Assembly: GCF_014897585.1 (NCBI RefSeq)
Contig: NZ_JABUXW010000004.1
Location: 1-64,000 of the forward strand
DNA from: Brachybacterium tyrofermentans
Lineage (GTDB): Bacteria > Actinomycetota > Actinomycetes > Actinomycetales > Dermabacteraceae
DNA: 64,000 nucleotides
Direction of reading: 5' to 3'
The position numbers were made by a program, and so were the translations under genes. Below, piece after piece: positions 110 through 10,449 of the stretch. The notes beneath the pieces were generated by a model. The model saw only the letters and a list, made by a program, of their open reading frames with translations. It did no database searches and was not told the origin of the DNA. Position 1 is the first letter of the stretch. Each line of letters opens with the position of its first letter.

Positions 110-170
110 GCCCGTCACCGGGCACCCCTGGCCGGCACCGGACTGTCGGCCGAACCATCCCCATGCCCCC

Positions 171-195
171 GTGCGTCGGCCTGTCGCCGACGCAC
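171..195 (+). promoter_or_regulatory. Inverted repeat upstream of adhP
   Basis: GTGCGTCGGC at 171-180 and GCCGACGCAC at 186-195 form a perfect 10-bp inverted repeat around a 5-base centre. It ends 36 bases before the adhP start codon. It could be an operator or a 5' UTR hairpin; no regulator gene is adjacent. Confidence 0.4.
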
Positions 196-231
196 GGGTG
201 GTCCGTCGTACCCCGACACAGGAGAGAACCC

Positions 232-1251
232 ATGACCACCATGAACGCCGCCATCGTCACCGAGTTCGGCCGCGACCTCGCGGTCGGCGACTACGAGGTG
301 CCGGAGCCCGGACCCGGCCAGGCCCTCGTCAAGCTCATCGCCACCGGGGTGTGCCACACCGACCTGCACGCCGCGGAGGGCGACTGGCCCGTCAAGCCCT
401 CCCCGCCGTTCGTCCCCGGCCACGAGGGCGTGGGCACCGTCGAGAAGGTCGGCGAGGGGGTCACCGATGTGAAGGTCGGCGACACGATCGGCAACGCCTG
501 GCTGTGGAGCGCCTGCGGCGACTGCCAGTTCTGCCGCACCGGCTGGGAGACCCTCTGCGAGGACCAGGTCAACGGCGGCTACAGCGTCGACGGCTCGTTC
601 GGCCAGTACATGATCGTGGACACCAAGTTCGCCGCCCGCATCCCCGAGGGCGCCGACCCCTACGAGATCGCCCCCGTGCTGTGCGCCGGCGTGACCGTCT
701 ACAAGGGCCTCAAGCAGACCGAGGTGCGCCCCGGCCAGTGGGTCGTGATCTCCGGCATCGGCGGGCTCGGCCACATCGCGGTGCAGTACGCGGTCGCGAT
801 GGGGATGCGTGTGATCGCCGTGGACATCGCGCAGGAGAAGCTCGACCTGGCCACCGAGCACGGCGCGGAGATCACGGTCGACGCGAGCATCGAGGATCCC
901 GTGGAGGTGATCCAGGAGAAGGTGGGAGGCAGTCACGGCGTGCTCGTGACCGCTGTGCACCCCAAGGCCTTCGGCCAGGCGATCGGGATGACCCGCCGCG
1001 GCGGCACGATCGTGTTCAACGGCCTGCCGCCCGGGGACTTCCCCGCGCCGATCTTCGACATCGTGCTCAAGGGCCTCACGATCCGCGGCTCGATCGTGGG
1101 CACCCGCCAGGACCTCGCCGAGGCGATCGAGTTCTACGCCGCCGGGAAGATCCACCCCACCTATTCCAAGCGCTCCCTCGAGGACATCAACGCCATCCTG
1201 GGCGAGATGAAGGAGGGCAAGATCGACGGCCGCGTGGTCATCGAGTACTGA
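232..1251 (+). CDS. adhP: Zinc-dependent alcohol dehydrogenase, AdhP type
   Basis: A 339-residue medium-chain dehydrogenase, the usual length for AdhP. Catalytic zinc ligands are Cys41, His64 (in GHEGVG) and Cys151. The structural zinc lobe has Cys95, Cys98, Cys101 and Cys109. The Rossmann motif G-I-G-G-L-G-H is at about 175-181. It should interconvert ethanol or other primary alcohols and aldehydes with NAD in the cytoplasm. The start is ATG 232, preceded by AGGAGAG at 220-226. An upstream in-frame extension to 163 has no ribosome site and would run through the inverted repeat. The preceding aldehyde dehydrogenase suggests an ethanol-to-acetate pair. Confidence 0.93.
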   Translation: MTTMNAAIVTEFGRDLAVGDYEVPEPGPGQALVKLIATGVCHTDLHAAEGDWPVKPSPPFVPGHEGVGTVEKVGEGVTDVKVGDTIGNAWLWSACGDCQFCRTGWETLCEDQVNGGYSVDGSFGQYMIVDTKFAARIPEGADPYEIAPVLCAGVTVYKGLKQTEVRPGQWVVISGIGGLGHIAVQYAVAMGMRVIAVDIAQEKLDLATEHGAEITVDASIEDPVEVIQEKVGGSHGVLVTAVHPKAFGQAIGMTRRGGTIVFNGLPPGDFPAPIFDIVLKGLTIRGSIVGTRQDLAEAIEFYAAGKIHPTYSKRSLEDINAILGEMKEGKIDGRVVIEY

Positions 1252-1383: not shown

Positions 1384-2346
1384 ATGACCCAGCTGCTCGA
1401 TGTCGCGAACATGGCCCGATGGATCAGGCGGGACGGTGCGGAGAGGATCCTGGTGCGGATGGTCGGTCGCCTCGAGGCGGACCTCCGGCGCTGGGAGCGC
1501 TTCGAGAAGATCCCGCGGATCGCGAGCCACACCCCGCTCGGCGTGATCGAGCTGATGCCGACCTCCGACGGGGAGACGTACTCGGTCAAGTACGTCAACG
1601 GCCACCCCTCCAACCCCTCCCGCGGCCTGCAGACCGTCACGGCGTTTGGGGTCCTGGCAGACGTCGACACCGGCTATCCGACGTTCCTCGCCGAGATGAC
1701 GCTGCTGACCGCGCTGCGCACCGCCGCGACGTCGGCCCTCGCGGCGAGGGCCCTCGCCCGGCCGGACTCGCGCACGCTCGCGCTGCTCGGCGCCGGTTCG
1801 CAGTCCGAGTTCCAGGCCCTCGCCCTCCGCGGCGTGCTGGGCATCGAGGATCTTCGGGTGTTCGACATCGATGCCGCGGCGACCGAGAAGGTGCGACGCA
1901 ACCTCGAGCCCCTCGGGTTCCGGGTGCACGCGGCGGCCTCGGTCGACGAGGCGGTCGCCGGGGCCGACATCATCACCACCTGCACCGCGGACAAGACCCG
2001 CGCGACGATCCTGCGCGCGGATCAGGTGGCCCCGGGCATCCACGTCGTGGTCGTGGAGTTCACCCCGCAGACCCGCATCGAGGGCGAGATCCAGCAGATG
2101 GCCGCGGACTTCCCCGTCACCGAGCTGTGGGAGGTGCTGGCGGGCACGGCCGAGGGACGCACGAGGGCGGAGGAGGTCACGGTCTTCGACTCCGTCGGCT
2201 TCGCCGTCGCGGACTTCTCGGCGCTGTGCTGCGCCCGGGAGGCGACGGCCGGATCGGATCTGCTCTCGGAAGTGGACCTGGTGGCCGAGCCCGACGATCC
2301 CAAGGATCTGTTCTCCCTGGTCGGCGTGCGCGCACCGGTCGGCTGA
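1384..2346 (+). CDS. Ornithine cyclodeaminase family protein lacking the catalytic loop
   Basis: This 320-residue protein matches Pseudomonas-type ornithine cyclodeaminase along most of its length: the K-Y-V-N-G-H-P substrate lysine motif, A-L-R-T-A-A-T-S, the Rossmann G-A-G-S-Q-S-E-F, PQTRIEGEIQQ, and VTVFDSVGFA near the end. The family converts ornithine to proline plus ammonia using NAD. The segment with G-G-D-C-P-G-K-T-E-L should follow P-G-I-H-V, but here P-G-I-H-V runs straight into VVVEFTPQTR, a loss of about 22 residues in frame. That loop carries the catalytic aspartate (Asp228 in P. putida), so activity is doubtful. The start has a strong AGGAGG at 1371-1376, and a TAGGCT -10-like box lies at 1328-1333. 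Confidence 0.85.
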   Translation: MTQLLDVANMARWIRRDGAERILVRMVGRLEADLRRWERFEKIPRIASHTPLGVIELMPTSDGETYSVKYVNGHPSNPSRGLQTVTAFGVLADVDTGYPTFLAEMTLLTALRTAATSALAARALARPDSRTLALLGAGSQSEFQALALRGVLGIEDLRVFDIDAAATEKVRRNLEPLGFRVHAAASVDEAVAGADIITTCTADKTRATILRADQVAPGIHVVVVEFTPQTRIEGEIQQMAADFPVTELWEVLAGTAEGRTRAEEVTVFDSVGFAVADFSALCCAREATAGSDLLSEVDLVAEPDDPKDLFSLVGVRAPVG

Positions 2347-2372: not shown

Positions 2373-3023
2373 TCAGCGGGCCTCGCGCTGGTCGAGGTCC
2401 TTGGGCTGGTCGAGGTCCGTGGGCTGGTCGAGATCCGTGGGCTGGTCGAGGTCCGTGAGCACGTCGAGGTCCGTGAGCAGCTGCTGCACCATCTCGTCCT
2501 CCGAGAGCTCCTCGCCGAGCACCTGCTCTCCCTCGGCCCCGAGCACATCGTGCTTCCGGTACCAGGAGGCGACCTCGTTGTCCGGGACCTCACCGCCGAT
2601 CGTCTTGCCGGCGTGACGGCGCAGCGTCTCCTCGAGGCTCACGTCGAGGTAGTAGACGAGGCTGCGGCCGGTGTGGTGGGCGAGCATCTCCGCGAACATG
2701 TCGCCATAGCGCTCGCTGCCGAAGATCCCCTCGACCACCGTGATCCGTCCGATCCCGAGGCAGTGGCGGGCGGTGGCCAGGATCAGCCCGGCGGTGTCCC
2801 CGTTCGCCGTGTCGTGCTCCCACAGCAGCTCGCGGCGCAGATGGTCCTGCCCGATCACGGCGACCCTCCCGCGCGGGAGGGCGCGCTGCACGCGGCGCGC
2901 GACCGTGGACTTCCCCGACGCGGAGTTCCCGCGCAGGATCACGAGGGGCGGCGCCGTGGCGTCGGAGGGCGGATCGGCGGGAACGGCCGAGACGGCAGGA
3001 ACGGCGGGGGCGGCGTCGGTCAT
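2373..3023 (-). CDS. P-loop kinase/AAA-type phosphotransferase with repeat tail
   Basis: A 216-residue cytoplasmic nucleotide-binding protein. After a short Ala/Pro-rich N-terminus it has the Walker A motif G-N-S-A-S-G-K-S-T, then IGQDHLRREL and VVEGIF, an arrangement seen in zeta-toxin/chloramphenicol-phosphotransferase-like small-molecule kinases. Its substrate is unknown. The C-terminus ends in repeated D-L-D-Q-P-T units encoded by an 18-bp tandem repeat. It lies twelve bases downstream of the siderophore permease on the same strand and may be its last operon member. ATG 3023 is chosen for the GAGG about nine bases upstream; in-frame ATG 3032 is possible. Confidence 0.75.
   Translation of the reverse strand: MTDAAPAVPAVSAVPADPPSDATAPPLVILRGNSASGKSTVARRVQRALPRGRVAVIGQDHLRRELLWEHDTANGDTAGLILATARHCLGIGRITVVEGIFGSERYGDMFAEMLAHHTGRSLVYYLDVSLEETLRRHAGKTIGGEVPDNEVASWYRKHDVLGAEGEQVLGEELSEDEMVQQLLTDLDVLTDLDQPTDLDQPTDLDQPKDLDQREAR
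2388..2477 (-). repeat. Five tandem 18-bp repeats inside the kinase gene
   Basis: Units start at 2388, 2406, 2424, 2442 and 2460, with core CTGGTCGAGGTCCGTGGG and one to three changes per unit. The 18-bp period keeps the frame and encodes D-L-D-Q-P-T repeats. Copy number could vary between strains. Confidence 0.9.
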
Positions 3024-3034
3024 GGGCCTCATCC

Positions 3035-5194
3035 TCACACGCGCGAGCGCCAGAGCAGCCACACGAAGTAGGGCGCGCCGATCAGCGAGACCAGCAGTCC
3101 GGCCGGCACCTGCGCGGGCGCGATGAGGGAGCGGCCCAGGGCGTCGGCCAGTCCCACCAGAACCCCGCCCAGCAGCATCGCCACCGGGATCGAGCGCAGG
3201 TGGCGGCCGCCCACGAGGGACCGCGTGAGGTGCGGGGCGACCAGGCCCACGAAGCCCACCACGCCGACGGCGACCACGCTGATCGCGGCGAGCACGGCGG
3301 CCAGGCCCAGCACCAGCACGCGGGTGCGCTGGAGCCGCACGCCGAGCAGCCGCGGGGAGTCCTCGTCGATCGCGAGCAGGTCCAGCTCGCGGTGCAGCGA
3401 GAGCATCACGGGCACCGCGATCGCGAGCACCACCAGCACCGGGACCACGTCGCTCAGGGTGCGGCCGTAGGTGGTCCCCGACAGCCACGTGAGGATCTTC
3501 GGGGTGTCCCACGCGTTCGCCTGCAGCAGCAGGAAGGTGGTCAGCGAGCTCATCGCGTAGCCCACGCCGATGCCCACCAGCACGAAGCGCTCCGGGGCGA
3601 GACCGCCGCGCCAGGCCAGCAGCGCGATGACGGCGAAGGTGGCGAGGCCGGCGGCCACCGCGAAGCCGATCATCAGCGGGCGGCTGCCGCCGAGCGCGGT
3701 CACCACGATCACGGCGCCGAGGCCGGCCCCGGCGGTGATGCCCAGCAGGCCGGGCTCCGCGAGCGGGTTGCGCACGGTGGACTGGACCACGCAGCCGGCC
3801 AGGGCGAGGGCCGCGCCGGCCAGCACGGCGGCGGTCATCCGCGGCACCCGTTCGCCGAGCGCGCGGGCCACCAGGGACGGCGCGTCGCCCTGGACCCACA
3901 GCGCGAGATCCCCGGTGCGCAGCCACAGGCTGCCGGCGAGCAGTCCCAGCAGTGCGATGCCGAGCAGCGCCGCGCCACTCGCCGCGAGCACGATCACGAC
4001 CTGTCGGCGGGAGCGCAGAGAGGTGCGCGCCTGCGGGGGCGGAACGCGCGAGCCGGAGTCCGGAAGCCGCCGGGCCAGCAGGATGATGATGATCGCGCCG
4101 AGCAGCGCGGTGGGGATCCCGGTCGGGACGGCGGTCGCACCCTGGGGGCCGAGGATCGCACGCACGACGGCGTCGGCCAGCAGCACCACGAGGGCGCCGA
4201 TCAGGCCGCTGGCGGGGATCAGCAGGAGGTGCCGGTTCAGGGAGCGCACCACGCCGCCGAGCAGGCGGGCGAGCACGGGGGCGCCGAGGCCGACGAAGGC
4301 GATCGGGCCGGCGACCGTGACGGCGGTGCTGCTGAGCAGCACGGCGGCGAGCACGGCGACCACGCGGGTGGAGCGCACCGGCACGCCCAGGCCGGAGGCG
4401 GCGTCGTCCCCCAGCCCCAGCACGTCCAGGCGCCGGGAGAGGAGCAGTGCCAGGAGCAGCACCACCGCGATCACGGGCAGCGCCCGCAGCGAGGCGGTGA
4501 GGTTCAGCTGGGACAGCGAGCCGCTGCCCCAGGCATACAGGCCGGTGGTCTCGGCCTGGAAGAGTATCAGCAGCATCGAGGTGCCGGACTGCAGCGCCAT
4601 CGCGACCGCGGAGCCGGCGAGGATCAGGCGCGTCGTGGAGGACGCCGCTCCCCCGGCGAGCGCCAGCACCACGGCGGCCGCGAGCAGCCCGCCGACGAAG
4701 GCGACCCCGCTCGAGGCCCACAGGGGAACGGCCAGTCCCAGCGCCGCCACCAGGGACAGGGCGAAGTAGGAGCCCGCGGTGACGGCGAGGGTGTCCGGCG
4801 AGGCCAGGGCGTTGCGGGAGACGGACTGCAGCAGGGCGCCGGCGCTGCCCAGGGCCACACCCACGGCCACCCCGGCGAGCAGGCGCGGCAGCCGTGAGGC
4901 GGTGAGCAGGTCGGCGATCGCGACCCCGCCCACGGTGTCCGCCCCGCCGGTGAGGTACGCCAGCAGGTTGCCGAGCCCGATCCCGGAGGTCCCCTGGGTC
5001 AGGTGCCAGGCACCGACCACGACCACGCCGAGGACCAGCAGCACCAGGGTGGCGATCCCGCCGAGGATCTCGCTGGCCCCGACCCGCAGCGCCTCGCGGG
5101 GGCTGCGGGACGGGATCGATGCCGACGTCGGCGCCTGATCCGGGGCCGGCGGGTGCTCCGGCGCCGACGACGGGCTCGTCGCCGTCCGGCTCAC
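3035..5194 (-). CDS. Fused FecCD-type iron-siderophore ABC permease (FhuB-like)
   Basis: A 719-residue membrane protein made of two tandem FecCD permease domains, about residues 40-385 and 400-719. Each has the family pattern of P-R-L/M-x-A-G-x-x-x-G-x-A-L followed by P-x-x-L-G-I-T/A-x-G. Such fusions, as in FhuB, form the whole transmembrane channel of a siderophore importer without a second subunit. A cytoplasmic N-terminal tail of about 40 residues is Pro/Ser-rich. The GTG start at 5194 overlaps the TGA stop of the binding protein by four bases (GTGA), so translation is probably coupled. The ATPase lies at the head of the cluster. Confidence 0.92.
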   Translation of the reverse strand: MSRTATSPSSAPEHPPAPDQAPTSASIPSRSPREALRVGASEILGGIATLVLLVLGVVVVGAWHLTQGTSGIGLGNLLAYLTGGADTVGGVAIADLLTASRLPRLLAGVAVGVALGSAGALLQSVSRNALASPDTLAVTAGSYFALSLVAALGLAVPLWASSGVAFVGGLLAAAVVLALAGGAASSTTRLILAGSAVAMALQSGTSMLLILFQAETTGLYAWGSGSLSQLNLTASLRALPVIAVVLLLALLLSRRLDVLGLGDDAASGLGVPVRSTRVVAVLAAVLLSSTAVTVAGPIAFVGLGAPVLARLLGGVVRSLNRHLLLIPASGLIGALVVLLADAVVRAILGPQGATAVPTGIPTALLGAIIIILLARRLPDSGSRVPPPQARTSLRSRRQVVIVLAASGAALLGIALLGLLAGSLWLRTGDLALWVQGDAPSLVARALGERVPRMTAAVLAGAALALAGCVVQSTVRNPLAEPGLLGITAGAGLGAVIVVTALGGSRPLMIGFAVAAGLATFAVIALLAWRGGLAPERFVLVGIGVGYAMSSLTTFLLLQANAWDTPKILTWLSGTTYGRTLSDVVPVLVVLAIAVPVMLSLHRELDLLAIDEDSPRLLGVRLQRTRVLVLGLAAVLAAISVVAVGVVGFVGLVAPHLTRSLVGGRHLRSIPVAMLLGGVLVGLADALGRSLIAPAQVPAGLLVSLIGAPYFVWLLWRSRV

Positions 5195-8649: not shown

Positions 8650-10449
8650 TCAGCGGCCGGGGAAGACCTTCTTGCGCGCCGTCTCCTCGGTGACGTCCGG
8701 GACCTGGTTCAGCAGCGAGACGCTGCCGGAGTCGCGGGAGCGGAAGTCGGCGAACATCCGAGCGATGTCCGGGGCACCGAACTCGTCGCGCACCGGGGCG
8801 GGCACGGTGAGCATGAGGGCGACGGCGATACCGATCGCGAGGGCGGTGCCGCCGGTGACCAGACCGGCACCGGCGCCCGTGGCGAGCGAGTTCACGATGA
8901 CGTCGAGGAAGCCGACGACCACGAGGATGAGGCCCGAGATCACGCCGTTGGCGCGGGCGGTGGTCGCAGGGCGGGACAGCAGCGAGGTGCGGGCGAACAG
9001 GGAGACCGCCACGAAGCACAGGCACACGGCGGCATCGATGAGGTGCAGGACGGTGCCGCCGGGGGCGAGCCCCGTGGACGCGACGAGCGCGGCCAGCAGG
9101 TGCCAGAGGACGGCCGCGGCATGCAGCACCACGCTGAACTCGAAGGCTCGCACGGTGAACACGAGCCAGTCGGTGCGGCGGAACGAGATCGGCATCGTGC
9201 GCACGAAGGACCGGGAGATCATCAGGCCGAGCGCGGCGAACAGGAACGGCAGGTACACGAAGTCGCTCGCGAAGCTGAGCGGCGCGGCGAACTGCAGCTG
9301 CAGGGTGTTGTCCGCGAGGGCAGCCAGCGCCAGACCGCTCACGGCGGCCGTGGAGAACACGTACCAGGAGCGCTCGCGCAGCAGCGCCGAGGCGAGCACG
9401 ATCCCCAGCAGGAGCACGGAGATCACCGTGTCGCCGATGGTCAGCAGCGAATAGGCCCACCCGGTGGTGAACATCCGGCCCACGATCATCACGAGGGCGA
9501 GGAGCAGGGCGACGGCGGCGCCGATCCCCACCCCGACCAGCCCGATGCGGGCCACCCGTCGGGCCCGGGCCTGCGGCAGGTACCCCTCGTGGGCGCGGGG
9601 TTCGATCCCGATGATCGCGCCGAGCAGCAGCAGCGGGACGCCGATGCCCAGGCCCGCGGGCGGGCCGTCCGGCAGGGAGGCGAAGAGCACGGGCAGCGAG
9701 AGGACCAGGTCGGACACGACGGTGCCGACCGCCACCAGCAGCGCCGGCAGCAGGCCGATCACGCGGACCGCACGGATCGCGGTCAGCGGCGGGGCCTTGG
9801 GGATCCAGCGCAGCAGGTGCACGGCGACGAGGGCGACCAGTCCCAGGCCGATGGCGAGCTTGCCGATGCCGTCCACCAGCGAGCTGTGCGCGACGGTGAA
9901 GGTCGTGGTGAGCGCGGTGACCATGCAGACCAGGGCGAGCACGTCCCGCAGGGCGTCGAAGACGCCGAGCTCCTTGAAGCGGTCCGGGAGCACGAGACCG
10001 TCGACCCCGCGACCGGAGTCCTCGGAGTCCTCCGCGTTCGGGGTGGTCCCGGAGCGGGCGTAGGTCTGGTCCCGCGGGGCCCGCAGCGGCGAAGTCGTGC
10101 CCGGCATCTCGGAACCGCTCGTCGTCCCCGGGGAGCCCGGCGAACGCGTCGAGCTGTCCGCGCCGTCTGCAGCGTCCTCGTCGAGCTCGATCATGGGGAT
10201 CGCGCCGGTGCGCGCCTCGGGCTCGGAACCCGCGCGCAGCGTATCGCCGTCGAGGTCGCTGAGGTCGGTGGTCATCTGCTCGCTGGGAGGCAGGACCGCC
10301 TCGGCGCGGCGGCGGGCGAGCAGCGGGGCCGCATAGCGGTCGAACTCGGCGCGGTCCGGGAGCCGTTCGGTGGGAAGCGTCTGCGGATCATCGGTGGCGA
10401 AGATCCAGTCCGCATCCTGGTTCTCGTCGCGCCGGCGATCGCTGTCCAT
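8650..10449 (-). CDS. Large multispan membrane protein with acidic disordered N-terminus
   Basis: A 599-residue protein of unknown function. Residues 1 to about 150 are charged and Pro/Ser/Thr-rich and probably cytoplasmic, with acidic runs such as DEDAADGAD. The rest has about twelve hydrophobic spans starting near VFDALRDVLALVCMVTALTTTFTV, and a short hydrophilic tail. I recognise no transporter or enzyme motif; it looks like a lineage-restricted actinobacterial family. ATG 10449 follows AGAGAAGG; an in-frame GTG at 10473 is less likely. It ends 61 bases before the uracil permease start on the same strand and could be cotranscribed. Confidence 0.8.
   Translation of the reverse strand: MDSDRRRDENQDADWIFATDDPQTLPTERLPDRAEFDRYAAPLLARRRAEAVLPPSEQMTTDLSDLDGDTLRAGSEPEARTGAIPMIELDEDAADGADSSTRSPGSPGTTSGSEMPGTTSPLRAPRDQTYARSGTTPNAEDSEDSGRGVDGLVLPDRFKELGVFDALRDVLALVCMVTALTTTFTVAHSSLVDGIGKLAIGLGLVALVAVHLLRWIPKAPPLTAIRAVRVIGLLPALLVAVGTVVSDLVLSLPVLFASLPDGPPAGLGIGVPLLLLGAIIGIEPRAHEGYLPQARARRVARIGLVGVGIGAAVALLLALVMIVGRMFTTGWAYSLLTIGDTVISVLLLGIVLASALLRERSWYVFSTAAVSGLALAALADNTLQLQFAAPLSFASDFVYLPFLFAALGLMISRSFVRTMPISFRRTDWLVFTVRAFEFSVVLHAAAVLWHLLAALVASTGLAPGGTVLHLIDAAVCLCFVAVSLFARTSLLSRPATTARANGVISGLILVVVGFLDVIVNSLATGAGAGLVTGGTALAIGIAVALMLTVPAPVRDEFGAPDIARMFADFRSRDSGSVSLLNQVPDVTEETARKKVFPGR

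Follow-up and report, generated by a model that had tools for sequence, protein, structure and literature searches.

An in-frame deletion removes the catalytic loop of an ornithine cyclodeaminase in Brachybacterium and is probably a recent loss of function

The ornithine cyclodeaminase (OCD) of Pseudomonas putida (1u7h/1x7d) is the closest described counterpart of the protein reported here, being homologous to it on both sides of an internal gap and the best match to its predicted fold (TM 0.93). Mu-crystallin (CRYM) belongs to the same superfamily and is an example of the reuse of the OCD fold; it too is a fold match to the predicted model. For the active site of OCD, passages of a QM/MM study (PMC3497308) describe Asp228 as hydrogen-bonding the alpha-amino group of the substrate and taking its proton, and place Lys69, Arg112 and Glu56 alongside it in the active site. 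The equivalents of these three are kept in the protein described here, and whereas the P. putida enzyme has the Asp228 block and a helix following it, our protein is without both. The OCD literature retrieved for Asp228, pseudogene, internal deletion and Brachybacterium, mostly as the beginnings of abstracts, names no such deletion.

The gene lies near one end of the window, by which we mean the whole stretch of 64,000 nucleotides that was analyzed and which forms the start of a 215,312 bp contig (C65) in a 4.6 Mb draft of 108 contigs. The genome groups with the genus Brachybacterium by its relatives. The features referred to below are as follows.

163..1251, plus strand: alcohol dehydrogenase-like ORF upstream of the OCD gene (name read from sequence)
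1384..2346, plus strand: ornithine cyclodeaminase homologue with an internal 22-residue deletion, 320 aa (PF02423, NF005762/PRK07589)
1588..1590, plus strand: codon of Lys69, kept; preceded by Val68 (Phe in 100 of 101 other sequences)
1789..1803, plus strand: GAGSQ nucleotide-binding stretch, residues 136-140, kept
2044..2049, plus strand: deletion junction GTC/GTG; the 66 bp of the relatives are absent between 2046 and 2047
3035..5000 (upper end approximate), minus strand: FecCD-like iron-siderophore permease region, downstream and convergent (name from sequence)

Membership of the OCD family is clear from the curated models, since the protein scores 462.5 bits with NF005762, the best NCBIfam model (cut-off 350), and 311 with PF02423 (cut-off 24); each of the two aligns to it as two stretches flanking the gap. 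We note the consequence for annotation that a protein above the NCBIfam cut-off would receive the name of a working OCD despite the absent catalytic aspartate. Orthologues from the same genus (e.g., L005, L006 and L016) are up to 86% identical to the window's OCD over aligned positions, and several share its neighbors. An alcohol dehydrogenase-like gene stands directly upstream of OCD in 2/10 relatives examined (G020 and G004), and because relatives share this neighbor the window copy occupies an ancestral place. In 5/10 relatives a FecCD-like permease lies no more than about 4 kb from OCD, four of them with an intact OCD and one (G014) with a truncated one, and a sixth has a short fragment of it near OCD. 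The window copy is thus a resident gene and no imported fragment, and it is best explained as the ordinary, vertically inherited OCD of the genus in an ancestral position.

The protein reads ...QVAPGIHV/VVVEFTPQTR... across the junction, where an alignment against 101 other distinct proteins places a single gap, 22 residues or 66 bp long, after codon 221 and before codon 222 (bases 2046 and 2047). The sequence-only reading had proposed that about 22 residues including the catalytic aspartate were missing while the substrate lysine and the NAD motif were intact; in the alignment of 102 distinct proteins the figure is exactly 22, and the GGD aspartate of the intact relative L006, counted along its alignment with 1u7h, is P. 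putida position 228 and falls inside the missing segment, which comprises N-A-I-G-G-D-C-P-G-K-T-E-L and a helix. In the DNA the junction is CAC GTC/GTG GTC GTG GAG, with 66 bp between the equivalent codons of the relatives, and Val codons to either side leave the exact breakpoints uncertain by about one codon. The relatives too have Val codons on both flanks, and as the ancestral sequence is lost the length of any microhomology cannot be fixed. A hairpin-promoted deletion was considered and set aside, the fold of 2010-2085 being no better than that of shuffles (z 0.22).

The alignment was built from homologous reading frames extracted from the loci, and its 102 distinct proteins include that of the window. 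Left out before any count were the window gene's own duplicates (L001 and L002), a frameshifted copy from G028 (L033) and seven duplicate proteins, and L003 was not among the matches that fed the alignment. None of the 101 other proteins has five or more gaps in the missing stretch, and the Asp228 equivalent in the GGDCPGKTEL loop, absent from the window protein, is present in 101/101. The alignment with homologues called for by the sequence-only reading therefore shows the gap in one protein and the block in all others, including all 28 same-genus sequences (L005-L032, from 28 of the 37 relatives), which unlike the window's hold the 22 residues. Of 127 columns conserved at 97% or more among the other sequences, the window protein keeps 113; thirteen of its 14 differences are the missing block and the fourteenth is F68V. 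As 13 of these 127 columns fall inside the missing block, the deletion is no chance feature. Val68 adjoins the substrate lysine and was weighed as a second lesion, but it is not diagnostic, since L026, which holds the block, shares it.

Searches beyond the alignment gave the same picture. A 53-residue junction peptide matched 32 of 47 family-level genomes at E 0.001, while among the 297 genomes of the order the figure was 50 at E 1e-8, and in neither set was there an end-to-end match outside the window. At the order level nine other genomes gave matches starting at residue 18 or earlier and thus apparently crossing the junction; seven of these, together with the family-level G043, were fetched and all eight copies hold the block, while the remaining two (G036 and G034) show it in the alignment (L022 and L031). 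The same is true of two further junction-crossing matches of the family-level search, both from the same genus, in G019 (from residue 18) and G022 (residues 1-39, 46%), represented by L024 and L011. With 0/101 other aligned sequences carrying the deletion and every junction-crossing match holding the block, a shared ancient deletion is ruled out.

What is retained is otherwise the equipment of an OCD. Of the 102 sequences, 46 and 45 entered the structure alignments; K69, R112 and E56 are invariant in 46/46, window protein included, so that besides the lysine and the GAGSQ stretch, as had been claimed, the arginine and glutamate are kept as well. Outside the gap the protein is conserved like its intact relatives. 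Models were predicted with AlphaFold2 for the window protein and, as control, for L006, which answers the earlier call for a structural model. In the control a strand (220-224) is followed by a helix (236-241) and a second strand (243-246); the window model is predicted to have one strand (220-224) in place of these three elements, and so would lack a complete nucleotide-binding sheet. Its pLDDT is 58, 68 and 83 over residues 221-230, 231-240 and 241-250, compared with 76, 89, 95, 90 and 96 over the five blocks of the control from 221 to 270. The window model has a mean pLDDT of 87.3 and a TM of 0.93 to 1u7h (control 0.94), values that lean on the intact relatives in the input alignment and do not speak directly to stability or activity. 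The fold is accordingly predicted not to have collapsed, yet the catalytic loop, one strand and one helix would be gone. The missing Asp228 equivalent, taken with the modeled loss of the strand, argues strongly that the enzyme is dead.

We consider it probable that a dispensable enzyme gene has recently lost its function here through an in-frame deletion. Under this explanation 66 bp would recently have dropped out of the genus's OCD, which converts ornithine to proline in an NAD+-dependent manner. The catalytic loop that carries the Asp228 equivalent would have gone, together with the helix after it and part of one strand in the nucleotide-binding domain, leaving the stubs joined; and the product would neither take up the alpha-amino proton of the substrate nor form a normal active site. 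We infer the loss of activity, its recency and the organism's tolerance of it. The sequence-only reading had left the choice between retention of a dead enzyme for some other use and a recent loss; the latter is favored because the deletion is in one genome only, the gene shows no other visible damage, and it is absent or broken in several relatives, while the former has gained no positive support and no second genome with the deletion has been found. We note that continued function would also predict an in-frame deletion and an undamaged remainder. As it stands this looks like an ordinary event, not like a novel type of protein.

The tolerance of such a loss is suggested by the distribution of the gene. 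A clear OCD orthologue is absent from 7/37 same-genus relatives, five having no match and two (G017 and G018) a weak one, that of G017 containing a stop, and four of the seven (G006, G017, G018 and G025) are at least 99% complete. In G014 the OCD remnant (L120, ~9831-10319) is without its first ~178 codons, which is an independent loss of OCD: the same gene is damaged there and in the window, but the G014 remnant keeps its catalytic loop. Upstream of this remnant lies a surface-protein-like ORF that bears an LARTG-type motif at its C-terminus. The OCD of G028 has a frame break, which may be a sequencing error in an assembly that is 85% complete. Absence or damage in several relatives therefore indicates that the gene is dispensable in several species, and one more damaged OCD in a genus with several OCD-less genomes suggests that the ornithine-to-proline shortcut is optional there. 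Elsewhere in the genus, three genomes (G003, G031 and G037) have two OCD copies each, separated by about 5-9 kb.

As to the metabolic context within the window genome itself, proC is present. No arginase was found in the genome, its sole arginase-superfamily match scoring as formimidoylglutamase, and the four genome matches to the ornithine aminotransferase model TIGR01885 are all under its cut-off. Apart from the window's OCD, PF02423 matches one further protein of the genome (L003, on contig C24); this is a distant one that reaches at best 70.2 bits with an NCBIfam model whose cut-off is 266, and it would hardly serve as a second OCD covering the loss.

Alternatively, the organism's gene may be intact and the draft may have skipped 66 bp as an assembly or library artefact, which we regard as unlikely but as the next likeliest account; an artefact of culture may also lie behind the gap. 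The draft is in 108 contigs, the gene starts 1.4 kb into its 215 kb contig, everything outside the gap resembles a working gene, and the deletion is seen in a single genome. When window ORFs were compared with the syntenic stretches of relatives, however, no gap of at least eight residues recurred against all relatives hit, among the matches listed, outside the OCD region and its shadow frames, and the assembly thus does not look generally prone to such gaps; nor is there a hairpin beyond chance at the junction. The missing motif is also on no other contig: a degenerate GGDCPGKTE pattern had 0 matches in the window's own genome and 1 in each of 3 relatives used as a positive control, ruling out that the block has moved or been misplaced onto another contig. 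This evidence against an artefact is not decisive.

Selection on the gene was assessed with a codon model of 12 sequences, from which L013, L015 and all more distant sequences were left out. Omega was 0.077 overall, and 0.105 on the window branch versus 0.075 elsewhere (2dlnL 1.49, not significant), this branch being approximate as tree support ranged from 40 to 100; relaxed selection on it was thus not detected with the 12 taxa. Among sequences that bear the block, L009 (0.193) and L012 (0.131) had higher values and L017 (0.102) and L016 (0.099) similar ones. For the final neutral fraction of the window branch the best value tried was 0.04, with 0 and 0.10 within 1.92 log units and 0.15 rejected, so that a neutral phase of more than 10-15% is excluded; a fraction of 0-0.10 means that the gene has been constrained for most of its separate history. 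A recent loss, an assembly artefact and continued constraint would all agree with this pattern, which does not discriminate among them.

Continued constraint would be expected of a young pseudoenzyme, catalytically dead but still a folded NAD-binding OCD that is selected for a non-catalytic or regulatory role. The deletion is in frame (a 1 in 3 probability by chance), omega on the window branch is low, the GAGSQ stretch and the other substrate residues are kept, the overall fold is predicted to persist, and mu-crystallin offers a precedent. The low omega is equally explained by recency, however, the model has part of the nucleotide-binding domain removed, and both the deletion (0/101 other aligned sequences) and the end-to-end match to the junction peptide are confined to the window; there is no evidence here of a reuse of the fold like that in mu-crystallin, and we hold such a role to be very improbable. 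Slightly more doubtful still is an active but altered family enzyme, e.g., a reductase with no need of Asp228, for although the superfamily has other members whose names refer to other activities and most substrate residues survive, conservation is 97% or more in 13 of the 22 lost columns and the model suggests that a strand and a helix are gone as well.

Two observations concern the region downstream of the gene. The FecCD-like permease of G001 (L118, 7322-9283) is 91.6% identical to that of the window (3035-5000), as against 79% for the OCDs of the same two genomes and 75.7-80.4% for the permeases of four other relatives, and recombination or transfer of the iron-uptake genes is possible. 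Between OCD and the permease, at ~2373-3000 on the minus strand, lies an ORF that by its sequence is P-loop kinase-like (GNSASGKST); it is present in only one of the stretches from the 10 relatives (G021, L116), and at its C-terminus D-L-D-Q-P-T recurs in a series of near-repeats.
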